Source: Ktedonobacterales bacterium (GTDB lineage: Bacteria > Chloroflexota > Ktedonobacteria > Ktedonobacterales > DATBGS01). Taken from it: DNA of 62,788 bases. Positions within the stretch are counted from its first letter, which is position 1, and each line of letters begins with the position of its first letter. The stretch covers positions 1-62,788 of the forward strand of contig DATBHW010000056.1 in the NCBI GenBank assembly GCA_036557285.1. Reading direction: 5' to 3'. Shown here piece by piece: positions 49,876 to 62,244 of the stretch. The position numbers and the translations under genes are program-made. The notes under the pieces are model-generated. The model was not told where the DNA came from and did no database searches. It saw nothing but the letters and a program-made list of their open reading frames with translations.

Positions 49876-52800
49876 ATGGACCAGAGTCAGGCGTCTGTGG
49901 CGCAGAGGCGCCAGGGTTCAATCAGTTCTTATCTATCCCTGTCATCCTGCGGCGATCAATCATCCCCCGCTGCTGATCTATCGCCGTGTCGAGATTATCC
50001 CTTGTATGCTCCTCAGTTTGAGCATGACGCCTGCGGCACAGGCTTTGTGGCGAACCTTACGGGATTACGCGAGCATCGCATTCTCACCGCCGCGCTGGAG
50101 GCGCTGATGAACCTGGCGCATCGCGGCGCGCTGGACGCTGACGACGAGACCAGCGATGGTGTGGGAATGATGACGCAGCTTCCCTACCGTCTGCTCAATG
50201 CCTGGCTGGCAGAGCAGGGTTTGCCGCCTGTGGCCTGGCAGAGCCTGGCGGTGGGCATGGTTTTTCTGCCCGGGGACGATGAGGCCGCCGCGCAGGCGCG
50301 TGAGGTTATGCGCGATGCGCTTGAACGTCGGCGGGCATCGGTCCTGGGCTGGCGTGTTGTGCCGGTCAATCCTGAGAGATTGGGCGCGGCTGCGCGGCGA
50401 ACGTGTCCACGGATCGAGCAGGTGCTGGCGCTGCGGCCAGACACCGCGACACCGGACGACTTCGAGCGGCTGCTGTATCTGGCGCGGAAAGAAACCGAGT
50501 CCCGACTGGCCGCCGCCGGAGTGAGCGATGTCTATATCGCCTCGCTTTCAGCACGTACCCTGGTCTACAAGGGTTTGCTGACGGCAGCCAATCTGCCACG
50601 CTTCTACCTGGACTTATGCGATCCACGCTTCGAGAGCGCGCTGGCCCTGTTCCATCAACGCTACAGCACCAACACGTTCCCAAGCTGGCGGCTGGCTCAG
50701 CCTATGCGTCTGCTGGCGCACAACGGCGAGATCAACACCATACAGGGGAATCGGAATTGGATGGCGGCCCGCGAAGCATCGAGCCTGGCGAACCATTGGG
50801 GCGATGAGGCTGGCTGGCTGCGTCCGATCATTGATCCTGGCGGCAGCGATTCTACCAGCCTGGATAATGCGCTGGAGCTTCTGATACGCTCAGGGCGCTC
50901 GCTGCTCCAGGCGCTGGCCTTGCTGGCTCCTGAAGCATGGGAGGGACGCAGCGACCTGGCTCCACCTATACGCAGCTTTTTCCAGGCGCAGGCGCCGCTG
51001 ATGGAGCCGTGGGATGGCCCGGCGGCCCTGGTCTTCAGCGATGGAACCCTGGCAGGCGCGGCGCTGGACCGCAACGGTCTGCGCCCTTTGCGCTATGTCA
51101 TTACGGGCGATGGTCTGGTTGCGCTTGGCTCCGAGGTCGGTATCGTGCATCTTGACGAGGCGCAGATTGTCGCCAAGGGACGCCTGGGTCCAGGCCAGAT
51201 GCTGGCTGTTGATACGGCGCGTGGTCTGGTGCTGGATAACCAGCAGATCAAGGAGGAACTGGCCGGTCTTGAGCCGTATGCCGCCTGGGTCGAGCGCCAT
51301 CTCATCCCCGTTTCAGTCGCGGCGAAAGAGGAGGGCGGTGGAGCGGTTGCCAAGCGCCCGATCCCTGATGACCTGCTGGAGCAGCAGGCGCTCTTTGGCT
51401 ACAGCCACGAAGATATAGAGCTAGTGCTGCGTCCGATGGCGCAGGAGAGCGCGGAGGCGACCTGGAGCATGGGCGACGATACCCCGCTCTCGATCTTCTC
51501 CCAACAGCCGCGCTCCCTTTCGACCTATTTCAAGCAGCGTTTTGCGCAGGTGACGAACCCTCCCATTGATTCCCTGCGCGAACAACTGGTGATGTCGCTG
51601 ACGACCTATCTTGGGCCACGCAGCGATGCGCTTGCCAGCAGCGAACCTGCGGAGACGCTGCTGCACCTCCCCTCTCCGCTGCTCGATGACGCGGCGCTGG
51701 CCGCTGTGCTGGCCTCGGCCCGTACCCATCAGATAGCAGTAAATCGTGTTCAGACTGTCTACGCGCTCGCTGCGAGCGATCCTGATGATGAGGATAAGGG
51801 CCGGACCCTGCGCTGCGCATTAGACGGTCTGGAAGAACAGGCGGTTGCCGCCGTTCGCGCGGGAGCCGGTATCCTGCTGCTCAGTGACCGCGCCGCGCCG
51901 CCTGACAACGTTCCTATGCCGATGCTGCTGGCGCTGGCGGCGGCGCATCACGCGCTGGTGCGCGCTGGCTTGCGGCTGCGGGTGGGGCTGGTAGTTGAGA
52001 CTGGCGCTGCCTGGGACGCGCATCAAATCGCGCTGCTCGTCGGCTATGGGGCTAACGCGGTCTTGCCCTATCTTGCGCTGGCGTCAGTGCGCGCTCTGGC
52101 AGGCAGCCGTGGGTTGGAGAATATGACGCTGCATGAGGCTGAGGGGCGCTATCGCCATGCCATTGAGAAGGGGCTGCTGAAGGTGATGGCACGCATGGGG
52201 CTTTCGGCGCTGGAGAGTTATCTGGGCGCGCAGCTTTTTGAGTGTCTAGGTGTCGCTGGCGAACTGGTAGAACGCTACTTCCCCGGCACGCCCTGGGCTT
52301 TGGGTGGGCTGACGCTGGCTGATTTACACCGGCAGGCCCGCGCCCAACACGCTGAGGCTAAGCGACTTGCTGCGCTGCGGGCTGCCGCTCAGGCAGATGG
52401 GCAACCTGGCGCTGATCAGGGGGCGCGCGAAGGCGAAAGAAGGTCTGGCGCGATCCGCCCGCGCCTGGCTGATCGCGGATATGTGCGCTTCCGCCGCGAT
52501 GGGGAATACCACGCGGCGAACCCGCAGGTGGTCAAGGCGCTGCAACAGGCGGTTGATAGCGGCAAACAGAGCGATTACCAGCACTATAGCAATCTGGTCG
52601 CCAGCCGCCCAGCGACGGCTATCCGCGATCTACTGGCTTTTCGGCCCGGCCAGCCGATCCCAGTAGAGGAAGTTGAGCCTGCGGAGGCGATCATTCGGCG
52701 TTTTGTGAGTACCGCGATGTCGCTGGGCGCGCTCAGCCCGGAAGCGCATCTGACGCTGACGCTGGGGGTCAATCGCGTGGGCGCGCGCAGCAATACCGGC

Positions 52801-54669
52801 GAAGGCGGAGAAGACCCCGATTGGTACACCGGCACGCGCGACGGGGTTTCGACGAACAGCCGCATCAAGCAGGTGGCTTCGGGTCGTTTCGGGGTCACGG
52901 CTGCCTATCTGGCCCATGCCGAGGAATTAGAGATCAAGATGGCCCAGGGTTCCAAGCCGGGCGAGGGCGGGCAGTTACCGGCGCGCAAGGTGACAGATTT
53001 GATCGCGCGCCTGCGCCATACTGCGACGGGCATCCCGCTGATTTCGCCGCCGCCGCATCACGATATTTACAGCATCGAAGACCTGGCCCAGTTGATCTAC
53101 GATCTGAAGCAGGTGAATCCGCGCGCGGCGGTTGGCGTGAAGCTGGTTTCCGAGCGCGGCGTTGGGACTGTGGCGGCTGGCGTTGCCAAAGCGCACGCCG
53201 ATTATATCCTGATTAGCGGGCATGATGGCGGGACCGGCGCTTCCCCACTGAATTCGATCAAGAACGTTGGCAGCCCCTGGGAACTGGGACTGGCGGAGGC
53301 CCAGCAGGTGCTGCGCATGAATGGGCTGCGTGGCCGCGTCAGGCTGCGAACAGATGGCGGCCTGAAGACCGGGCGCGACATTGTGATGGCGGCCATGCTG
53401 GGCGCTGACGAGTTCGGCTTTGGCGCCGCCGCGCTGATTGCGCTGGGCTGCGATATGGCGCGTCAGTGCCATCTGGATACCTGCCCAACCGGCATTGCCA
53501 CGCAGCGCGAAGACCTGCGCAAACGCTTTACCGGCAAGCCGGAACAGGTCGTCACGTTCCTGCGCCTCATTGCTGAAGAGGTACGCGAAATCCTGGCTGG
53601 CCTTGGTTTTCGCAGGCTCGATGACGTTATCGGGCGGGCAGATTTGCTCATCGCCTCGAAGGAGGGAGCCGCTGAAGCCAGGGCTACCCCTCTGCCGACA
53701 CTCGACCTGGACGCCCTGCTTGCCAGTGGCCCGGCTGATACGCCCCGCCGCTCTACCCCTGCGGAGCAGGTTGTATCGCTGGCAGGCGGCAAGCCGCTGG
53801 ATGAAGAAGAGCTGCTGAACGATGCCCTTCCGCTGCTGGCGCGCGGCTATGGGGTGCTGGTCCATGAGCACATTCATAACGCGCATCGCACCGTAGGCGC
53901 TGGCCTGGCGGGCGAGATTGCGCGCCGCTGGGGCGATAGTGGCCTGCCCGCTGGCAGCATCACCTGCCACTTCACCGGCAGCGCCGGACAGAGCTTTGGC
54001 GCGTTCTGTGTGCCAGGGCTGCGCCTGATTCTGGCGGGCGACGCCAACGACTATGTGGCGAAGGGTATGACGGGTGGGCAGATCATCGTGATGCCCCCGC
54101 CGCATCACCGTTTCAATGCTCAGGAGCAAATTATCGTCGGCAATACCGTTCTCTACGGCGCGACGGGAGGACTATTGCTGGCTCGTGGACGCGCCGGAGA
54201 ACGCTTCGCGGTGCGCAACAGCGGGGCGGTTGCCGTCGTGGAGGGCGTAGGCGATCATGGCTGCGAGTACATGACCGGCGGTGTGGTGGTGGCGCTGGGG
54301 CCGACGGGACAGAACTTTGGGGCTGGAATGTCTGGCGGGATCGCCTATGTCTATGACCGGGAGCAGCGTCTGCCCGATCATCTGAACCCGCAGATGGTGC
54401 GGCTGGAGCGCATAGAGAGTGATGCGGAAGCCGCCGATCTGGAGGCGCTGATTCGCCATCACGCGCAGGTGACGGGGAGCGATCTCGCGGCCTCCCTTCT
54501 GACCGGCTGGCAGGATGCCCTGGCCGCGTTCTGGCGGGTTGTTCCTGAAACAGCGACGGAGGCGGCGCGGCCTTTGCAGACGGTGGTATCCGGCCTGCAA
54601 CTCGCGCCGGGCGCGCCGCCCTACGCATTGGGAGAACGTGTGGCTGCTGTGAGAAGGATGACTGGCTGA
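49876..54669 (+). CDS. gltB: glutamate synthase, large subunit or ferredoxin-type
   Basis: A 1597-residue enzyme making two glutamates from glutamine and 2-oxoglutarate. Class II amidotransferase: nucleophile Cys53 in FEHDACGTGFVANL, so a 52-residue propeptide would be removed. The central domain spans about 480-780, the FMN synthase domain about 850-1240 (GEGGEDPDWYTG, ISGHDGGTGASPLNSIK), the [3Fe-4S] cluster cysteines are in GCDMARQCHLDTCPTG, and a C-terminal GXGXG helix domain follows. AGGAGG precedes the ATG. No gltD is adjacent, so it may use ferredoxin or a distant small subunit. Confidence 0.92.
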   Translation: MDQSQASVAQRRQGSISSYLSLSSCGDQSSPAADLSPCRDYPLYAPQFEHDACGTGFVANLTGLREHRILTAALEALMNLAHRGALDADDETSDGVGMMTQLPYRLLNAWLAEQGLPPVAWQSLAVGMVFLPGDDEAAAQAREVMRDALERRRASVLGWRVVPVNPERLGAAARRTCPRIEQVLALRPDTATPDDFERLLYLARKETESRLAAAGVSDVYIASLSARTLVYKGLLTAANLPRFYLDLCDPRFESALALFHQRYSTNTFPSWRLAQPMRLLAHNGEINTIQGNRNWMAAREASSLANHWGDEAGWLRPIIDPGGSDSTSLDNALELLIRSGRSLLQALALLAPEAWEGRSDLAPPIRSFFQAQAPLMEPWDGPAALVFSDGTLAGAALDRNGLRPLRYVITGDGLVALGSEVGIVHLDEAQIVAKGRLGPGQMLAVDTARGLVLDNQQIKEELAGLEPYAAWVERHLIPVSVAAKEEGGGAVAKRPIPDDLLEQQALFGYSHEDIELVLRPMAQESAEATWSMGDDTPLSIFSQQPRSLSTYFKQRFAQVTNPPIDSLREQLVMSLTTYLGPRSDALASSEPAETLLHLPSPLLDDAALAAVLASARTHQIAVNRVQTVYALAASDPDDEDKGRTLRCALDGLEEQAVAAVRAGAGILLLSDRAAPPDNVPMPMLLALAAAHHALVRAGLRLRVGLVVETGAAWDAHQIALLVGYGANAVLPYLALASVRALAGSRGLENMTLHEAEGRYRHAIEKGLLKVMARMGLSALESYLGAQLFECLGVAGELVERYFPGTPWALGGLTLADLHRQARAQHAEAKRLAALRAAAQADGQPGADQGAREGERRSGAIRPRLADRGYVRFRRDGEYHAANPQVVKALQQAVDSGKQSDYQHYSNLVASRPATAIRDLLAFRPGQPIPVEEVEPAEAIIRRFVSTAMSLGALSPEAHLTLTLGVNRVGARSNTGEGGEDPDWYTGTRDGVSTNSRIKQVASGRFGVTAAYLAHAEELEIKMAQGSKPGEGGQLPARKVTDLIARLRHTATGIPLISPPPHHDIYSIEDLAQLIYDLKQVNPRAAVGVKLVSERGVGTVAAGVAKAHADYILISGHDGGTGASPLNSIKNVGSPWELGLAEAQQVLRMNGLRGRVRLRTDGGLKTGRDIVMAAMLGADEFGFGAAALIALGCDMARQCHLDTCPTGIATQREDLRKRFTGKPEQVVTFLRLIAEEVREILAGLGFRRLDDVIGRADLLIASKEGAAEARATPLPTLDLDALLASGPADTPRRSTPAEQVVSLAGGKPLDEEELLNDALPLLARGYGVLVHEHIHNAHRTVGAGLAGEIARRWGDSGLPAGSITCHFTGSAGQSFGAFCVPGLRLILAGDANDYVAKGMTGGQIIVMPPPHHRFNAQEQIIVGNTVLYGATGGLLLARGRAGERFAVRNSGAVAVVEGVGDHGCEYMTGGVVVALGPTGQNFGAGMSGGIAYVYDREQRLPDHLNPQMVRLERIESDAEAADLEALIRHHAQVTGSDLAASLLTGWQDALAAFWRVVPETATEAARPLQTVVSGLQLAPGAPPYALGERVAAVRRMTG

Positions 54670-54700: not shown

Positions 54701-54788
54701 GTAGCGCCAGCCGCCGTCCCTGGCGAACCGTTCGCCGCCAGGGACGGCGGCGGTACACGCAAGAGGCCGCTGCGTGCAGCGCCGCTAC
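54701..54788. repeat. long palindrome between gltB and amt
   Basis: 54711-54750 is an almost perfect hairpin (CCGCCGTCCCTGGCGAAC with its complement, one bulge). Flanking GTAGCGCC and CGCCGCTACAAG echo the arms of the repeats at 15715 and 23220. It lies between two convergent genes and could stop transcription from both sides or be a relative of those elements. Confidence 0.5.
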
Positions 54789-56173
54789 AAGCGATAGCCT
54801 TCTTCCCCGTGGACGGCCAGATCAAGTCCTTGCGCCTCTTCCTCGCTTGAGACGCGCAGTTTCATGGGAGCGAGTAATTTCAAGAGGATGAAGGTGATGC
54901 CAAACGAGTAGGTCAGGCTGACCGCAACTGCGAGGATCTGTACCCAAAGCTGTCCAGGGTTGCCGAAGAGCAGCCCATTATTGCCCGCGCTGTTAATGGC
55001 TTTTTCGGCAAAGACACCAGTGAGAATAGCGCCCGTGACGCCGCCCATTCCGTGCGCTGCCCACACATCGAGCGTATCATCAACGCGCATACGTTTGTTG
55101 CGCAGCAGAAGCATGAGATAGGTCACAACCCCCGCGATGATCCCGATGGCGATGCTTGCCATCGGCCCTACAAAGCCGCTGGCCGGTGTGATCGCTACCA
55201 ACCCGCAAACGGCCCCGGTTGCGGTTGCCATCGCGCTTGGCTTCTTGTTTTCGGCCCAACTGAGGACCATCCAGGTCAGCGCGCAGGCGGCGGCTGCGGT
55301 ATTGGTCACGACAAAGGCGCTTACGGACAACGGGGAGGCGGCCAGAGCACTGCCCGCGTTAAAGCCAAACCAGCCAAACCAGAGCAAGGCCGCGCCGAGC
55401 AGGACGAAGGGGACATTGTTCGCGGCGATTGGCTGCCCTGGCCGATACTCGCGCCTTTTGCCAATCACGATGGCTGCGGCTAAGCCTGCAAAGCCCGCGC
55501 TGATATGAACGACGGTCCCTCCGGCGAAATCGAGCGCCCCAAGGCTGTGCAGCCATCCGCCCGCGCCCCAAACCCAGTGGGCGATGGGGTCATAGACAAG
55601 CGTGGACCAGAGAATGATGAAGAGGACCAGCGTGCGGAAACGCATGCGCCCGACAAACGAGCCGATGACGAGCGCGGGCGTGACAATCGCAAACATGGCC
55701 TGGAAGATCATGAAGGCAAGCTGTGGGATGGTTCCGGCATAGCTGGCGTTGGGCGCATAGCCCACGCCGCGCAAGCCGAAGAAGTTGAGTCCGCCGATGA
55801 CGCCGCCCATATCGTTGCCAAAGACGAGGCTGTAGCCAAAGAGCACCCATTGGATGCTGACAATTCCAAGGATGAGCAGCGATTGTTTGATCAGGCTCAC
55901 CACATTTTTGCTGGAGACCATGCCTCCATAGAAAAAGCCGACGGCTGGAGTCATGACCATCACCAACGCGGCTGCCGCCAGAACCCAGGCGGTATCCCCG
56001 GCGTTGATGGCTTTGGGATCATAGGCTCCTGCGGATGCTCCGCCGAACCAGGTGGTTGCATAGCCAATAGCCCCGCCAATCACGAAGAGGAGGAGGACTT
56101 TCAGCCGGAAGGCGCGGTTGTAGATAAGGGGCATCCTGGGTGCAGGGGGTCGCGCTGCTTCAATTGTCGCCAT
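54785..56173 (-). CDS. amt: ammonium transporter (Amt family)
   Basis: A 462-residue channel-like membrane protein with 11-12 hydrophobic segments that conducts ammonium into the cell. Family features are VMTPAVGFFYGGMVSSKNVV, FMIFQAMFAIVTPALVIG, WVWGAGGWLHSLGALDFAGG with VVHIS, and DDTLDVWAAHGMGGVTGAIL. The N-terminus has an extra hydrophobic stretch (LKVLLLFVIGGAIGYATTWF). The ribosome-binding site is weak (GGTGACA). No GlnK/PII gene is adjacent. It converges with gltB and diverges from the lys operon. Confidence 0.92.
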   Translation of the reverse strand: MATIEAARPPAPRMPLIYNRAFRLKVLLLFVIGGAIGYATTWFGGASAGAYDPKAINAGDTAWVLAAAALVMVMTPAVGFFYGGMVSSKNVVSLIKQSLLILGIVSIQWVLFGYSLVFGNDMGGVIGGLNFFGLRGVGYAPNASYAGTIPQLAFMIFQAMFAIVTPALVIGSFVGRMRFRTLVLFIILWSTLVYDPIAHWVWGAGGWLHSLGALDFAGGTVVHISAGFAGLAAAIVIGKRREYRPGQPIAANNVPFVLLGAALLWFGWFGFNAGSALAASPLSVSAFVVTNTAAAACALTWMVLSWAENKKPSAMATATGAVCGLVAITPASGFVGPMASIAIGIIAGVVTYLMLLLRNKRMRVDDTLDVWAAHGMGGVTGAILTGVFAEKAINSAGNNGLLFGNPGQLWVQILAVAVSLTYSFGITFILLKLLAPMKLRVSSEEEAQGLDLAVHGEEGYRL

Positions 56174-56503: not shown

Positions 56504-56533
56504 TTGACACGCAGAGACGCTATCGGCTACAGT
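56504..56533 (+). promoter_or_regulatory. promoter of the T-box/lys operon
   Basis: TTGACA (56504-56509), 18 bases, TACAGT (56528-56533); transcription would start just before the T-box. Confidence 0.55.
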
Positions 56534-56544
56534 ATAGAACGTTC

Positions 56545-56830
56545 ACAAGAGAGAAAACGCTAAAGGGGAAGAGTACCCGGACAATCACCAGCAGAGACCA
56601 GGCGGTTGGTGCAAGCCTGGAGGTTGAGGCCCGGCGGAAAAAGGCCCCTGAGTGTGGGAAGAACGAGGGTACAGACCCTTTAGTAGACCCCACCGGCTGC
56701 CACCGTTACCCGGCTAGAGTGTGTTGGCACTCGAAGAGGCTTTGCGCCGCGAGGCGCAGGCGAATGAAGGTGGTACCACGACCAGGCGCATTTCAGGCGC
56801 TGCTCGTCCTTTACGAGCAGCGCCTTTTTG
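56545..56830 (+). promoter_or_regulatory. T-box leader, predicted tRNA-Lys specific
   Basis: Stem I has AGTA (56572-56575), AGAGACCAGGC, the apical GGTTGGTGCAAGCC, and on its 3' side GAA-AAA-G. If GAA is the S-turn strand, the specifier codon is AAA (Lys) at 56640-56642. The antiterminator consensus is AAGGTGGTACCACG (56767-56780) with TGGT for the tRNA acceptor end. It ends in a terminator. Uncharged tRNA would favour read-through into lysW. T-box identity is firm; the specifier reading is inference. Confidence 0.85.
56795..56829 (+). terminator. terminator of the T-box
   Basis: AGGCGCTGCTCGT pairs with ACGAGCAGCGCCT, followed by TTTTTG. The regulated transcription stop 41 bases before lysW. 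Confidence 0.9.
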
Positions 56831-56869: not shown

Positions 56870-57031
56870 ATGGCAAGCTGTCCAGAATGCGGGGGCGGCG
56901 TTCCCGCCGCCAATGTCGAGCGCGGGGAGATACTCCCCTGCCCCGATTGCGGGGCCGAATTAGAGGTTCGCAGCGTCGAGCCGCTGGTGTTGGAACTGGC
57001 CCCGGAGATTCAAGAAGATTGGGGTGAGTAG
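56870..57031 (+). CDS. lysW: LysW amino-group carrier protein
   Basis: A 53-residue acidic zinc protein. It has the zinc ribbon CPECGG...CPDCG and the C-terminal EDWGE, whose last Glu is joined to the amino group of alpha-aminoadipate (or glutamate) so that intermediates are carried on the protein. AAAGGAG lies seven bases before the ATG. It is the first gene after the T-box. The short length is normal for the family. Confidence 0.95.
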   Translation: MASCPECGGGVPAANVERGEILPCPDCGAELEVRSVEPLVLELAPEIQEDWGE

Positions 57032-57161
57032 CGGACGCGGCAAAGCTGGTGGCATGGAATGCCAGGGTTTGATGACAACATCCTGAAAGCGACAGACAAA
57101 GGAGGCCCATCTTGGGGAAAGGACCGTTCAGCCGATAACCGTTGGGATTCTGGCATCGCGG

Positions 57162-57995
57162 GTGCGCGTCGAGGAGAAGCTGCTGATGGAAGCGTTCCGC
57201 GCGCGCCAGATAGATGTAGTCTTGATTGATGACCGCAAGCTTGTCTTTGACCTTGTGGCTCAGCAGAACGTGTTGAGCCGCTATCAGATTATTCTAGAGC
57301 GCAGCCTGAGCCAGTCGCGCGGTATGTATCTGCTGCACGCGCTCGCTCAGCTTGGTATCCCTACCCTCAACCGCTACGACGTGGCAGCCGTCTGCAACGA
57401 CAAATACCTCACAACCGCTGCCCTGGTCCGCCAACAGATTCCGACTCCACGCACACTGCTGGCCTTTACGCCGGAAGCCGCGCTGCGGGCGCTGGATGAG
57501 ATTGGTTATCCGGCGGTTCTCAAGCCGGTAGTCGGTTCCTGGGGCAGATTGCTTGCCAGAGTCAATGACCGCGACGCCGCCGAGGCAATTCTGGAACACA
57601 AGGAGACGCTTGGCTCCTACCAGCACAGCATCTTCTATATCCAGGAGTATATCCCCAAGCCCGAACGCGACATTCGCGCGTTCGTCGTGGGTGATCGCAC
57701 GATCTGCGCGATCTACCGCGCTTCGGAACACTGGATTACCAATACAGCGCGGGGCGCAAGCGCGACTTGCTGCCCGGTGACACCCGAACTTGACGGTCTG
57801 TGCCGCGCAGCCGCGCGCGCGGTGGGCGGCGGCGTCCTGGCGGTGGATGTATTGGAAAGCCAGCGCGGCTTGCTGGTCAACGAGGTCAACGCGACGATGG
57901 AGTTCCGCAACAGCATCGCGCCCACCGGCGTTGATATTCCGGGCATCGTTGCCGACTATGCGCTGGCGGTCGCGCGAGGGGAGCAGGCGCTGTGA
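57162..57995 (+). CDS. lysX: LysX, LysW--aminoadipate ligase (ATP-grasp)
   Basis: A 277-residue form from the first canonical start (GTG 57162). The enzyme ligates alpha-aminoadipate to the C-terminal Glu of LysW with ATP. ATP-grasp features are [39 protein letters not shown] and [19 protein letters not shown]. The family N-terminal strand is encoded upstream in the same frame ([16 protein letters not shown] from about 57138), but no ATG, GTG or TTG starts it; AGGAGG at 57100-57105 points to a start near 57111. A one-base difference in the GGGG run at 57114-57117 would restore a TTG start. Confidence 0.85.
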
Positions 57996-59092
57996 ACCTT
58001 CCTGTTGAACACGACTCTCCGGTTCGCGTGGCGATTCTTGGCGGCTCCGGCTACGCTGGCGGCGAACTGGCGCGATTGCTGTTGCAGCATCCACGAGCGC
58101 AGATTGTCCAGATCGCCTCTGAACACTACGCCGGAAGCTACCTACACGGCCTGCATCCCAATCTGCGTCCGGCGGGTGGGCGGCCTCCTGTTCGACTGGT
58201 GTCGCCAGACGCGCTGGAGCGATGCGATGTTCTGTTTGTCGCGCAGCCGCATGGCGCGAGTATGCGTCAGATTGAGCGTTACCAGGCGCTTGCGCCGCGT
58301 ATTATCGATCTGAGCGCCGATTTCCGGCTGCGCCGCGCCGAGGGCTATTCGCGCTGGTACGGGCATCCGCACCCGCGCCCGGACCTGCTGGAACGCGCTG
58401 TCTATGGCATCCCTGAACTGCACCGGGCAGAACTGCCAGAGGCGCGCCTCATCAGCGGGGCGGGCTGCCTGGCGACGGCGGCTATTCTGGCGCTGGCTCC
58501 GTTGGCGCGGGCCGCTGTGCTGGATCGCCAGGCCCCGCTGGTGATCGAGGCCAAAGTCGGCTCCTCCGCTGCGGGGGCCGCGCCGGGCGCTGGCTCGCAT
58601 CATCCCGACAGAAGCCATGCTGTGCGCTCCTTTGCGCCTACCGGCCACCGGCACACGGCGGAGATTATGCAGGAGCTTGATTGGCCTGAAGCCACTGCCG
58701 AATCGAGCCAGGCGCGCGGCGTGTATTTTTCGGCTACGGCTGTGGAACTGGTGCGCGGCGTCCTCGTCACGGCCCAGGCATTCTTGCGCGAACAGCTCAG
58801 CGACGGCGATCTCTGGCGGCTTTATCGCGCGGCTTATGGCAAGGAGCCGTTCATCCGCATGGTGAAAGATCGCTCCGGCGTCTATCGCTATCCTGAGCCA
58901 AAAGTGCTGACCGGCAGCAATTACTGTGACATTGGCTTCGAGGTTGAGCCAGGCACGCGGCGCGTCGTGGTGATGGCCGCGCTCGATAACCTGATGAAAG
59001 GCGCGGCTGGCAACGCTGTGCAGGCGCTCAACGCGGCGATGGGCTGGGACGAAACGCTAGGGCTGACTTTTAGCGGGCTGCATCCGATCTAG
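57992..59092 (+). CDS. lysY: LysY, LysW-aminoadipyl phosphate reductase (ArgC family)
   Basis: A 366-residue NADPH-dependent reductase converting the LysW-bound acyl phosphate to the semialdehyde. It has Rossmann motif [17 protein letters not shown], catalytic Cys in [19 protein letters not shown], and the His in [13 protein letters not shown]. The GTG start overlaps the lysX stop (GTGA). ArgC-type enzymes for arginine look alike; the LysW context and T-box favour lysine, though dual use is possible. Confidence 0.88.
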
Positions 59093-59108: not shown

Positions 59109-59912
59109 ATGTTGACTGTCATGAAGATTGGCGGCGGGCGCGGGATTGATCGCGCTGCTGCCGCTGCGGATATTGGAGAGTATGTTGCGCGGGGCGAGCA
59201 GGTGGTGGTGGCGCATGGCTGTTCGGCGGCTGCCGATGCGCTGGCGGCATCGCTTGGCGAGCCGGTGCACTACGTGACCTCGACGGCTGGCGTGCGCAGC
59301 CGCTATACCGACGCGCGCATGCTTGACATTTTTCTGATGGCGGCGCTGCGGGTGAACGCCGAACTGGTCCGGGCGCTCCAGCGGGAAGGCGTCAACGCGC
59401 TGGGGCTGAGCGGGCTGGATGGCGCGCTCTTGCGTGGACCGCGCAAGGAAGCCCTGCGTATTGTTGAGGATGGACGCCAGCGCGTCATCCGCGATGATTT
59501 TACGGGGCGCGTGGAGCAGGTGAACACCGGGCTGCTGCGCCTCTTGTTGGAGCAGGGCTATACGCCGGTTGTTGCGCCGCTGGCGCTTGCCGATACCGGC
59601 GAGGCCGTCAATGTGGATGGTGATCGCGCCGCCGCGATGATGGCCGCTGCCTTGGAAGCCGATCTGCTGGTCATCTTGTCGAACGTGCCGGGGCTGCTGG
59701 CCGATGCCCGAAATGAGCGAACGCTTATCGCGTCGCTCAGTATCCCGGAACTGAGCCGCTATGAAGCGCAGGCGAGCGGCGGCATGCGCCGCAAGCTGAT
59801 CGGCGCGCGAGAAGCGTTACAGGCTGGAGTACGCCGGGTGGTGCTGGCCGATGGGCGCGCTGAGCATCCGGTGCAGGCTGCTCTAGCCGGGAGAGGGACG
59901 GTAATCGCATGA
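59109..59912 (+). CDS. lysZ: LysZ, LysW-aminoadipate kinase (ArgB family)
   Basis: A 267-residue amino-acid kinase phosphorylating the side-chain carboxylate of LysW-bound aminoadipate. Key segments are VMKIGGGRGI (phosphate loop), VVVAHGCSAAADALA, GLSGLDGALLRG, NVDGDRAAAMMAAALEAD and GGMRRKLIGAREAL. It starts 16 bases after lysY with GAGG upstream, and its stop overlaps the next start by ATGA. It could also act on LysW-glutamate for arginine. Confidence 0.88.
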   Translation: MLTVMKIGGGRGIDRAAAAADIGEYVARGEQVVVAHGCSAAADALAASLGEPVHYVTSTAGVRSRYTDARMLDIFLMAALRVNAELVRALQREGVNALGLSGLDGALLRGPRKEALRIVEDGRQRVIRDDFTGRVEQVNTGLLRLLLEQGYTPVVAPLALADTGEAVNVDGDRAAAMMAAALEADLLVILSNVPGLLADARNERTLIASLSIPELSRYEAQASGGMRRKLIGAREALQAGVRRVVLADGRAEHPVQAALAGRGTVIA

Positions 59913-61096
59913 GTACAGGTTATGAACCTGTGGTTGAGATCGAACAGGACGCCGAGGCGCGCTATGAGGCAGGCGGCGCTTACAAGCGCCCGATCCGGCT
60001 GGTGCGCGGCGCAGGCGCGGTGGTGTTCGACGACCGGGGGAACGAATACATTGACTGTGTGGGCGGCATCGCAGTGGCAAACGTCGGCCACGCCAATCCG
60101 CGAGTAGTGGCGGCAATTACGCAGCAGGCTGCGCGTCTGATAACTTGCCCCGAACTCTTTTACAACGACGTGCGCGCCGCCTATCTTGAACGCCTGGTCG
60201 CCGCGCTGCCTGCCGGGATGAATCGGGTCTTTCTGTGCAATTCAGGAACCGAGGCCATTGAAGCAGCGATCAAGTTTGCGCGGCTCACCACCGGACGGAC
60301 TGAGATTATGGCGGCCATGCGCGGCTTTCATGGGCGCACGCTGGGGGCGCTCAGCGCCACCTGGGAAAAGTCCTATCGTGCGCCGTTCGAGCCGCTGGTC
60401 CCTGATTATCAGCATGTGCGCTACAACGATCCGGCGGCGCTCGAAGCGGTCATCTCCGACAGGACCGCTGCCGTCATGCTGGAGGTCGTGCAGGGCGAGA
60501 GCGGCGTCAGACCGGCTGATCCAGCGTATCTCCAGGCTGCTGCGCGGCTCTGCCAGGAACGCGGCGCGCTCTTGATTGTGGATGAGGTTCAGACCGGCTT
60601 CGGGCGCACAGGCCGAATGTGGGCCTGCGAGCATGCTGGCATTCTGCCCGATCTGCTCTGTCTGGCAAAAGGTATCGCGGGAGGTGTCCCGATGGGCGCA
60701 GCGTGCCTGGGGCCGCGCGTGCAATCCATGCCCCCAGGCTTACACAGCAGCACCTTTGGCGGGAATCCGCTGGCCTGTGCTGCGGCCATCGCTACCTTAG
60801 ACGAACTAGTCGAGCGGCGCCTGCCTGAGCGGGCCGCGATCCTGGGAACGCATCTGCTGGAACGCCTGCGGGCGCTGGCGGCTTCGTCTCCCGTAATTCG
60901 TGAGGTACGCGGGCTGGGGCTGCTGCTGGGAATTGAACTGCGCGAACATGTGCAGCCGTACCTCAAGGCGCTGGCGGGCCGGGGCGTGCTGGCGCTGACG
61001 GCAGGGCCGTCTGTTATCCGGCTGGCCCCGCCCCTGGTGATTGAGGATGCGCAGCTTGAACAGGTTGCCGCTGCGCTGGAGGAGGCGCTGCGATGA
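59909..61096 (+). CDS. lysJ: LysJ, LysW-aminoadipate semialdehyde transaminase (ArgD family)
   Basis: A 395-residue class III aminotransferase giving LysW-bound lysine from the semialdehyde, with glutamate as donor. The PLP lysine is in LLCLAKGIAGGVPMGA; the PLP Asp is in LLIVDEVQTGFGRTG; FLCNSGTEAIEAAIKFARL binds phosphate. ATG 59909 overlaps lysZ, and its stop overlaps lysK, both by four bases. ArgD enzymes are often bifunctional for lysine and arginine. Confidence 0.9.
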   Translation: MSTGYEPVVEIEQDAEARYEAGGAYKRPIRLVRGAGAVVFDDRGNEYIDCVGGIAVANVGHANPRVVAAITQQAARLITCPELFYNDVRAAYLERLVAALPAGMNRVFLCNSGTEAIEAAIKFARLTTGRTEIMAAMRGFHGRTLGALSATWEKSYRAPFEPLVPDYQHVRYNDPAALEAVISDRTAAVMLEVVQGESGVRPADPAYLQAAARLCQERGALLIVDEVQTGFGRTGRMWACEHAGILPDLLCLAKGIAGGVPMGAACLGPRVQSMPPGLHSSTFGGNPLACAAAIATLDELVERRLPERAAILGTHLLERLRALAASSPVIREVRGLGLLLGIELREHVQPYLKALAGRGVLALTAGPSVIRLAPPLVIEDAQLEQVAAALEEALR

Positions 61097-62244
61097 CGAT
61101 TGAAAGAGCGGTTGCCGAACCAGCGCGCTCAGCCTGGACCCTGGCTGATGAAGAGGCGCTGCTGATCGGCATGCTCCAACGCTATACGCCATCTGGCGCA
61201 GAACGGGCGCTCTCCGAGTGGCTCTGCGGGCGCCTGGACGTATCGGCTCTGCGGGGAGAGGTGGATGCGGTTGGCAACTTTATCGCTGAATTGCCAGCAA
61301 CGGTTGATAGACCTGAGCCGCCCTGTGTGCTGCTGGGCCACCTGGATACGGTATCGGGCGCTATCCCGGTGCGGCGCGAGGGCGAACGCCTCTATGGTCG
61401 CGGGGCGGTAGATGCGAAGGGGCCGCTGGCGGCTTTTATCGCGGCGACGCTGCGCCTGGCCGCCAGCCCTGCCCCAAGACGCCGCGCGGTCATCGTTGTG
61501 GGCGCTGTAGAGGAAGAGGCGGCAACCTCACGCGGCGCGCGGGCCGTCCTGGACCGCTGGCGGCCAGCCTATACGATCATTGGCGAACCCAGCGGGGCCA
61601 GCGCCGTGACCCTCGGCTATAAGGGGCGGCTGCTGGTCTCCTACCGAATAGAGCAGCCTGTCGCGCACACGGCCCGCCCGGAAGAGGGCGTTTGCGCGCG
61701 GGCGGTAGCTTTCTGGCAGACGGCACAGCAGGCGGCAGAGCAGTGGAATGCTGCCCAGGCGCCGCCGAACGGCCCTGCAACCTATTTCGACGCTTTGATG
61801 CCGTCGCTGCGCGCGATCAACTCCGGCAGCGATGGCTTTACCGAGTGGTGCGAGCTAGAGATTGGCTATCGCTTGCCGCCTGACTTCGATGCTGCCGCCC
61901 TTGAAGCCTGGCTTATGCAAGCGGCGCGGGCAGAGGGCGCGCAACTCACCTGTCGGGGCGCTGAAGCGGCGTATCGCGCGCCGCGACATGGCCCGCTGGT
62001 CAGCGCCTTTGTGCGCGCCATGCGCGCCGGGGGCATCGCACCGGCTTTCAAGCTCAAGACCGGCACGTCGGATATGAATGTGGTTGGGCCGGTCTGGAAC
62101 TGTCCGCTGCTGGCCTATGGCCCCGGTGATTCGGCGCTGGACCACACGCCCAACGAGCATATCGTTCTCCCGGAGTATTTTCAAGCCATCGCCATACTTG
62201 AGCGGGCGCTGGCCGAACTGGTGTACACGCCTGCTCAGGGGTGA
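61093..62244 (+). CDS. lysK: LysK, LysW-lysine hydrolase (M20 peptidase family)
   Basis: A 383-residue zinc hydrolase that frees lysine from LysW and regenerates the carrier. Metal ligands are in LLGHLDTVSG (His), GRGAVDAKGPLAAF (Asp), VVGAVEEEAATSRGAR (catalytic Glu pair), IGEPSGA and the final YGPGDSALDHTPNEHIVL (His). The start overlaps lysJ (ATGA). It is the last pathway gene here; the early steps (homocitrate synthase, homoaconitase and others) are not in the window. Confidence 0.88.
   Translation: MTIERAVAEPARSAWTLADEEALLIGMLQRYTPSGAERALSEWLCGRLDVSALRGEVDAVGNFIAELPATVDRPEPPCVLLGHLDTVSGAIPVRREGERLYGRGAVDAKGPLAAFIAATLRLAASPAPRRRAVIVVGAVEEEAATSRGARAVLDRWRPAYTIIGEPSGASAVTLGYKGRLLVSYRIEQPVAHTARPEEGVCARAVAFWQTAQQAAEQWNAAQAPPNGPATYFDALMPSLRAINSGSDGFTEWCELEIGYRLPPDFDAAALEAWLMQAARAEGAQLTCRGAEAAYRAPRHGPLVSAFVRAMRAGGIAPAFKLKTGTSDMNVVGPVWNCPLLAYGPGDSALDHTPNEHIVLPEYFQAIAILERALAELVYTPAQG

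Follow-up and report, generated by a model that had tools for sequence, protein, structure and literature searches.

A T-box placed before the genes of a LysW-type carrier pathway raises the question of whether the operon answers to lysine or to arginine, and through which codon. The case considered here lies in a contig of a Ktedonobacterales bacterium (GCA_036557285.1, contig DATBHW010000056.1), which was analysed over its whole length of 62,788 nucleotides and is referred to as the window. The original prediction, made from the letters alone, had set the element at 56545-56830, and these coordinates are right: an Rfam covariance-model search of the whole window reports an RF00230 match on the forward strand that spans the full model (positions 1-219), scores 94.5 bits where the gathering score is 93, and has a whole-window E of 2e-19. 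The leader is confirmed as a real T-box. Among the 14 T-boxes of this genome it has the top score and is the only one above the RF00230 cut-off, so that in this genome it is the cut-off that is stringent, not the match that is poor. Stem I, the specifier loop, the T-box bulge and the terminator, all part of the first description, are seen in the RF00230 alignment and in the folds, together with the AGAGA/GGUUGGUG apical elements and the T-box sequence UGGUACC (56771-56777). Folding of the terminator stem (56795-56825) yields -27 kcal/mol (z = -5.6), and the antiterminator folds once the 3' arm of the terminator is omitted, the two structures being mutually exclusive. Upstream, a consensus scan returned one promoter-like site where 0.2 were expected, which is weak evidence. 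The features are collected in Table 1.

Table 1. Features of the lysW leader and operon, in window coordinates
Feature	Position	Strand	Basis
Promoter-like site, TTGACA-18-TACAGT	56504..56533	+	consensus scan
T-box leader RNA (RF00230), class I, stem I to antiterminator	56551..56814	+	cmscan 94.5 bits, over gathering score
Specifier codon AAG (Lys)	56641..56643	+	register calibrated on the genome's 13 other T-boxes; relatives keep AAG/AAA
Antiterminator	56765..56813	+	Rfam alignment and fold of stretch 56765..56813 alone
UGGU in T-box bulge	56771..56774	+	sequence; predicted pairing with ACCA of uncharged tRNA-Lys (A73)
Intrinsic terminator, 13-pair stem and U run	56795..56829	+	folding
lysW, carrier protein, C-terminus EDWGE	56870..57031	+	TIGR01206 69.7 bits, over cut-off
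lysX, ATP-grasp ligase, start codon uncertain	57108..57995	+	TIGR02144 329 bits, over cut-off
lysY, argC-like reductase	57992..59092	+	TIGR01850 over cut-off
lysZ, [LysW]-aminoadipate kinase	59109..59912	+	NF010659 329 bits, over cut-off
lysJ, aminotransferase	59909..61096	+	best model LysJ_Th_th under its cut-off; argD subfamily over cut-off
lysK, [LysW]-lysine hydrolase	61093..62244	+	NF003367 368 bits, over cut-off

The proposed LysW-type operon is borne out by profile matches to lysW-lysX-lysY-lysZ-lysJ-lysK downstream of the leader. The LysW carrier and the LysX/Y/Z/J/K set are thereby present, the LysJ equivalog model scoring under its cut-off, and the contig, hence the window, stops 544 bases past lysK. 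The lysX product carries the motif HWITNTARG, identical to that of Thermus thermophilus LysX, so that its substrate motif, with the NT residues as in the Thermus protein, is of the LysX and not of the ArgX type. The more distant chain 3vpb, the Sulfolobus tokodaii ArgX according to PMC10433800, differs in this motif, the meaning of which is given in the accessible part of the same paper. Adjoining the lysine operon are genes for the large subunit of glutamate synthase (49876-54669) and an ammonium transporter (54785-56173; opposite strand).

The specifier was read in a register calibrated on the Infernal alignments of the 13 other T-boxes of this genome, as the three model columns that follow GAA and one spacer; a script sliding the lower stem I helix had been dropped, being unstable where the helix slips. 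These columns hold a sense codon in 13 of 13 cases, and the amino acid of the downstream gene fits in 12: UUC (pheS), CUC (leuS), AUC (ileS, the second gene), CCC (proS), UCC (serS), GGC (glyS), ACC (thrS), CGC (argF), UGG (trpS), GCC (alaS), GAC (aspS, non-discriminating) and GUC (valS). The gene names come from NCBIfam, several of the proteins being truncated where the locus stops, with the ileS fragment scoring under the full-length cut-off. The 13th T-box, with UUC, precedes a gene devoid of any NCBIfam match. In the lysW leader the same columns hold AAG, hence a lysine specifier, in agreement with the lysine genes downstream; the register GAA-A-AAG-G-CCCC, within an 8-base loop, leaves no slack.

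Two of the calibration T-boxes have features of their own. The T-box without a named gene (L003 1501-1783, C3:49487-49769) is a second Phe T-box upstream of a small ORF, and its 3' half is nearly identical to that of the pheS T-box, located 2.6 kb away in divergent orientation. The leuS leader contains a complete tRNA-Ala(GGC) gene with an encoded CCA (L004 1712-1787, C40:66754-66829), inserted between the 5' side of stem III and the antiterminator.

The genome encodes both tRNA-Lys(CUU) and tRNA-Lys(UUU), each with A73, and the UGGU of the lysW leader complements A73 of tRNA-Lys(CUU). The bulge letter tracks the discriminator base at the argF leader too, where UGGC faces a tRNA-Arg(GCG) with G73. 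Among 13 relatives searched, tRNA-Lys(CUU) was found in 12, always with A73, and not in G045; the tRNA-Lys(UUU) of G035 has A73 as well. Our reading, to which we assign a probability of about 0.93, is that the lysW leader is a class I (transcriptional) T-box riboswitch that responds to lysine via AAG and controls lysWXYZJK. The nascent leader would bind tRNA-Lys by its AAG specifier. Were this tRNA uncharged, its ACCA would pair with the UGGU of the bulge, the antiterminator would form and the polymerase would continue into lysWXYZJK, while charged tRNA-Lys would let the terminator (56795-56829) halt transcription. Through this predicted tRNA binding and read-through, lysine shortage would activate that half of the alpha-aminoadipate route to lysine which runs on the LysW carrier.

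Conservation was followed in 47 genomes of the window's class, 28 of which, the window's own included, contain LysX at E <= 1e-70. Rfam T-boxes lie upstream of lysW in 24 of the 27 other LysX loci; in the remaining three, a contig edge cuts the T-box (L178, L199) or the locus begins inside lysX (L185). The T-box is a tandem pair in 22 of these 24 loci and single in G008 and in L180, where a contig edge may have removed a second box. All 46 boxes of the 24 loci are followed by a U run save one, a box of L192. A consensus fold of 18 hand-chosen leaders, one per locus and represented by the second box where tandem, comprises 47 pairs, 39 of them with two-sided changes. The related boxes whose alignments were inspected specify lysine in 20 out of 20 cases (16 AAG and 4 AAA), the calibrated columns of L183 and L193 holding AAA, synonymous with AAG. 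A different codon, or homologues without the box, had been named as what would speak against the original prediction; aligned with its relatives' leaders, the element gave no such refutation.

A wider collection of 80 LysX loci shows the same-strand T-box core pattern upstream of lysX in seven, a figure that says little on absence because the collection was sampled by query closeness and much of the upstream DNA is short. The seven comprise five Ktedonobacteria/Thermogemmatispora loci, the Thermomicrobiales-labelled L043 and the Chloroflexi locus L026, in which the T-box (AAG) is followed by homocitrate synthase, a homoaconitase and lysX. In L043, as read by eye, a LysX-like gene with the motif HWITNAARG (1-1031) ends immediately upstream of the Lys T-box belonging to the following lysX, and the two genes are possibly an ArgX/LysX pair.

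The tandem leaders bring arginine back into consideration. The second boxes carry UGGU, and 7 of the 22 first boxes carry UGGC (L174, L175, L176, L177, L179, L181 and L189; six as UGGCAAC), which mismatches A73 of tRNA-Lys, although the Rfam model still places AAG in the UGGC boxes inspected (L174, L179, L189, and L175 as L058). Such first boxes are either relaxed or specific for a tRNA with G73, for instance a tRNA-Arg. It is conceivable, though we consider it unlikely, that in several genera box 1 responds to arginine, its AGA specifier and UGGC bulge matching a tRNA-Arg with G73, and box 2 to lysine, as a two-amino-acid gate in series; the window would then represent the plain lysine version with a single box. 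The T-boxes before argC-argB in relatives, with CGC (Arg) and UGGU in G043 and CCC in G030 and G045, did not settle the arginine reading of box 1. The T-boxes before argC-argB with CCC (proline) in the specifier columns, from G030 and G045, lie at L239 8718-9116 and L240 8102-8306 (minus strand).

Arginine could also be reached in the window itself if the specifier were one base further on (AGG) and the operon answered to arginine as in ArgW-type pathways, which we regard as very improbable. AAGG and AAGA do contain AGG and AGA, the genome's tRNA-Arg(CCU) has A73 too, and a 9-base loop in the first boxes of some relatives could bring AGA/AGG to the spacing from the lower helix that the calibration requires. 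However, the window's own loop allows no such shift, and box 2 of L183 and both boxes of L193 carry AAA and no AGR triplet, so that the arginine register cannot hold there. The genomic context argues in the same direction, since the genome has argJ, argB and argC separate from the lysine operon and an Arg (CGC) T-box of its own heading argF-argH-argG. Homocitrate synthase follows lysK in 10 of 11 relatives fetched, and homoaconitase comes next in nine (the G035 contig ends within homocitrate synthase; in G008, read by eye, an isopropylmalate/homoisocitrate-dehydrogenase-like gene follows lysK instead). An operon that runs on into homocitrate synthase in relatives is a lysine operon of the alpha-aminoadipate type. 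Moreover, a classical second argB is kept in 27 of the 28 LysX genomes of the class, the exception being G036 (83% complete) with LysZ alone, and LysW therefore need not make arginine there. With the Lys specifier, this evidence upholds the initial preference for lysine over arginine.

The pathway of the window's own genome is less complete. No homocitrate synthase over the cut-off was found in this draft, which is 96.9% complete and whose contig ends shortly past the operon; the best matches cluster with isopropylmalate synthases. A LeuA-like gene at C5 was rejected as a candidate: its product shares 76% identity with a Thermogemmatispora protein found alongside the real homocitrate synthase there, and 29% with that synthase. 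The genome also has dapB and lysA over the cut-off, with a dapA match below it, and lysine may thus come from diaminopimelate too. The lysW operon may be one of two lysine routes, or be fed aminoadipate from elsewhere, or depend on a synthase encoded in sequence that the draft lacks.

The remaining issue is the codon within lysine. The original prediction was correct in the amino acid and one base off in the codon, its AAA (56640-56642) sitting immediately left of the AAG. We give little credence to AAA as the specifier, with tRNA-Lys(UUU) as partner. This tRNA exists in the genome and AAA does encode lysine; in the accessible part of an analysis of 23,535 T-boxes, two-codon amino acids such as lysine use one codon in >85% of cases, 3'-A over 3'-G (PMC7778990), a preference from which the AAG of the lysW leader departs. 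The calibrated columns nevertheless hold AAG, and in relatives the base to its left is G, A, U or C, which would turn the AAA register into GAA, UAA or CAA. Least probable of all is a decayed, functionless T-box, for which the want of a clear homocitrate synthase in this genome might speak, given the top score among 14 T-boxes, the intact terminator and bulge, the open operon and the conservation with covariation across the class.

A lysine-responsive T-box at this site would put the LysW/alpha-aminoadipate route under direct tRNA-charging control, and its specifier offers a genomic criterion for whether a LysW operon makes lysine or arginine. With a T-box on nearly every LysW operon, mostly doubled, the class lends itself well to asking what is gained from tandem T-boxes, and its use of AAG where AAA is customary to asking why a codon is chosen. 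In the literature searched, with most subscription papers and TBDB lying outside the search, no published account of a T-box before a LysW-carrier operon was found, and TBDB may list one; the "lysW" of PMC5584792 is, in its accessible part, a transporter, a homonym irrelevant to the LysW carrier. T-boxes had been introduced here as best known from Firmicutes, but others, Chloroflexi included, are already published: the accessible text of PMC2494555 reports them on Dehalococcoides ile and trp genes, and that of PMC3766115 across the phylum Chloroflexi in general. Tandem T-boxes are likewise already known (PMC12452182, as far as accessible).

The lysine riboswitch (RF00168, L-box) is likewise an RNA control of lysine genes but a different RNA, for which the Rfam covariance-model search reports no match in the window. 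With the LysW lysine biosynthesis of T. thermophilus, the window has the lysW/X/Y/Z/J/K set in common, as well as the LysX motif. In Thermus, a leader-peptide attenuator acts on the LysW lysine genes. Unlike T. thermophilus, which is devoid of the DAP pathway according to the accessible part of PMC10433800, the present genome carries dapB and lysA and lacks a clear homocitrate synthase. A lysine-specific T-box is known on lysK of Bacillus cereus, encoding a class I lysyl-tRNA synthetase (PMC2916919, accessible part). The lysW leader shares the whole anatomy of the class I T-box riboswitch (RF00230) and scores over the family cut-off; it differs from the known ones in that it targets a LysW-carrier alpha-aminoadipate operon and that the leaders of most relatives are tandem. 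The type of switch is well known, whereas its use on a LysW operon, often doubled in relatives, looks little described.
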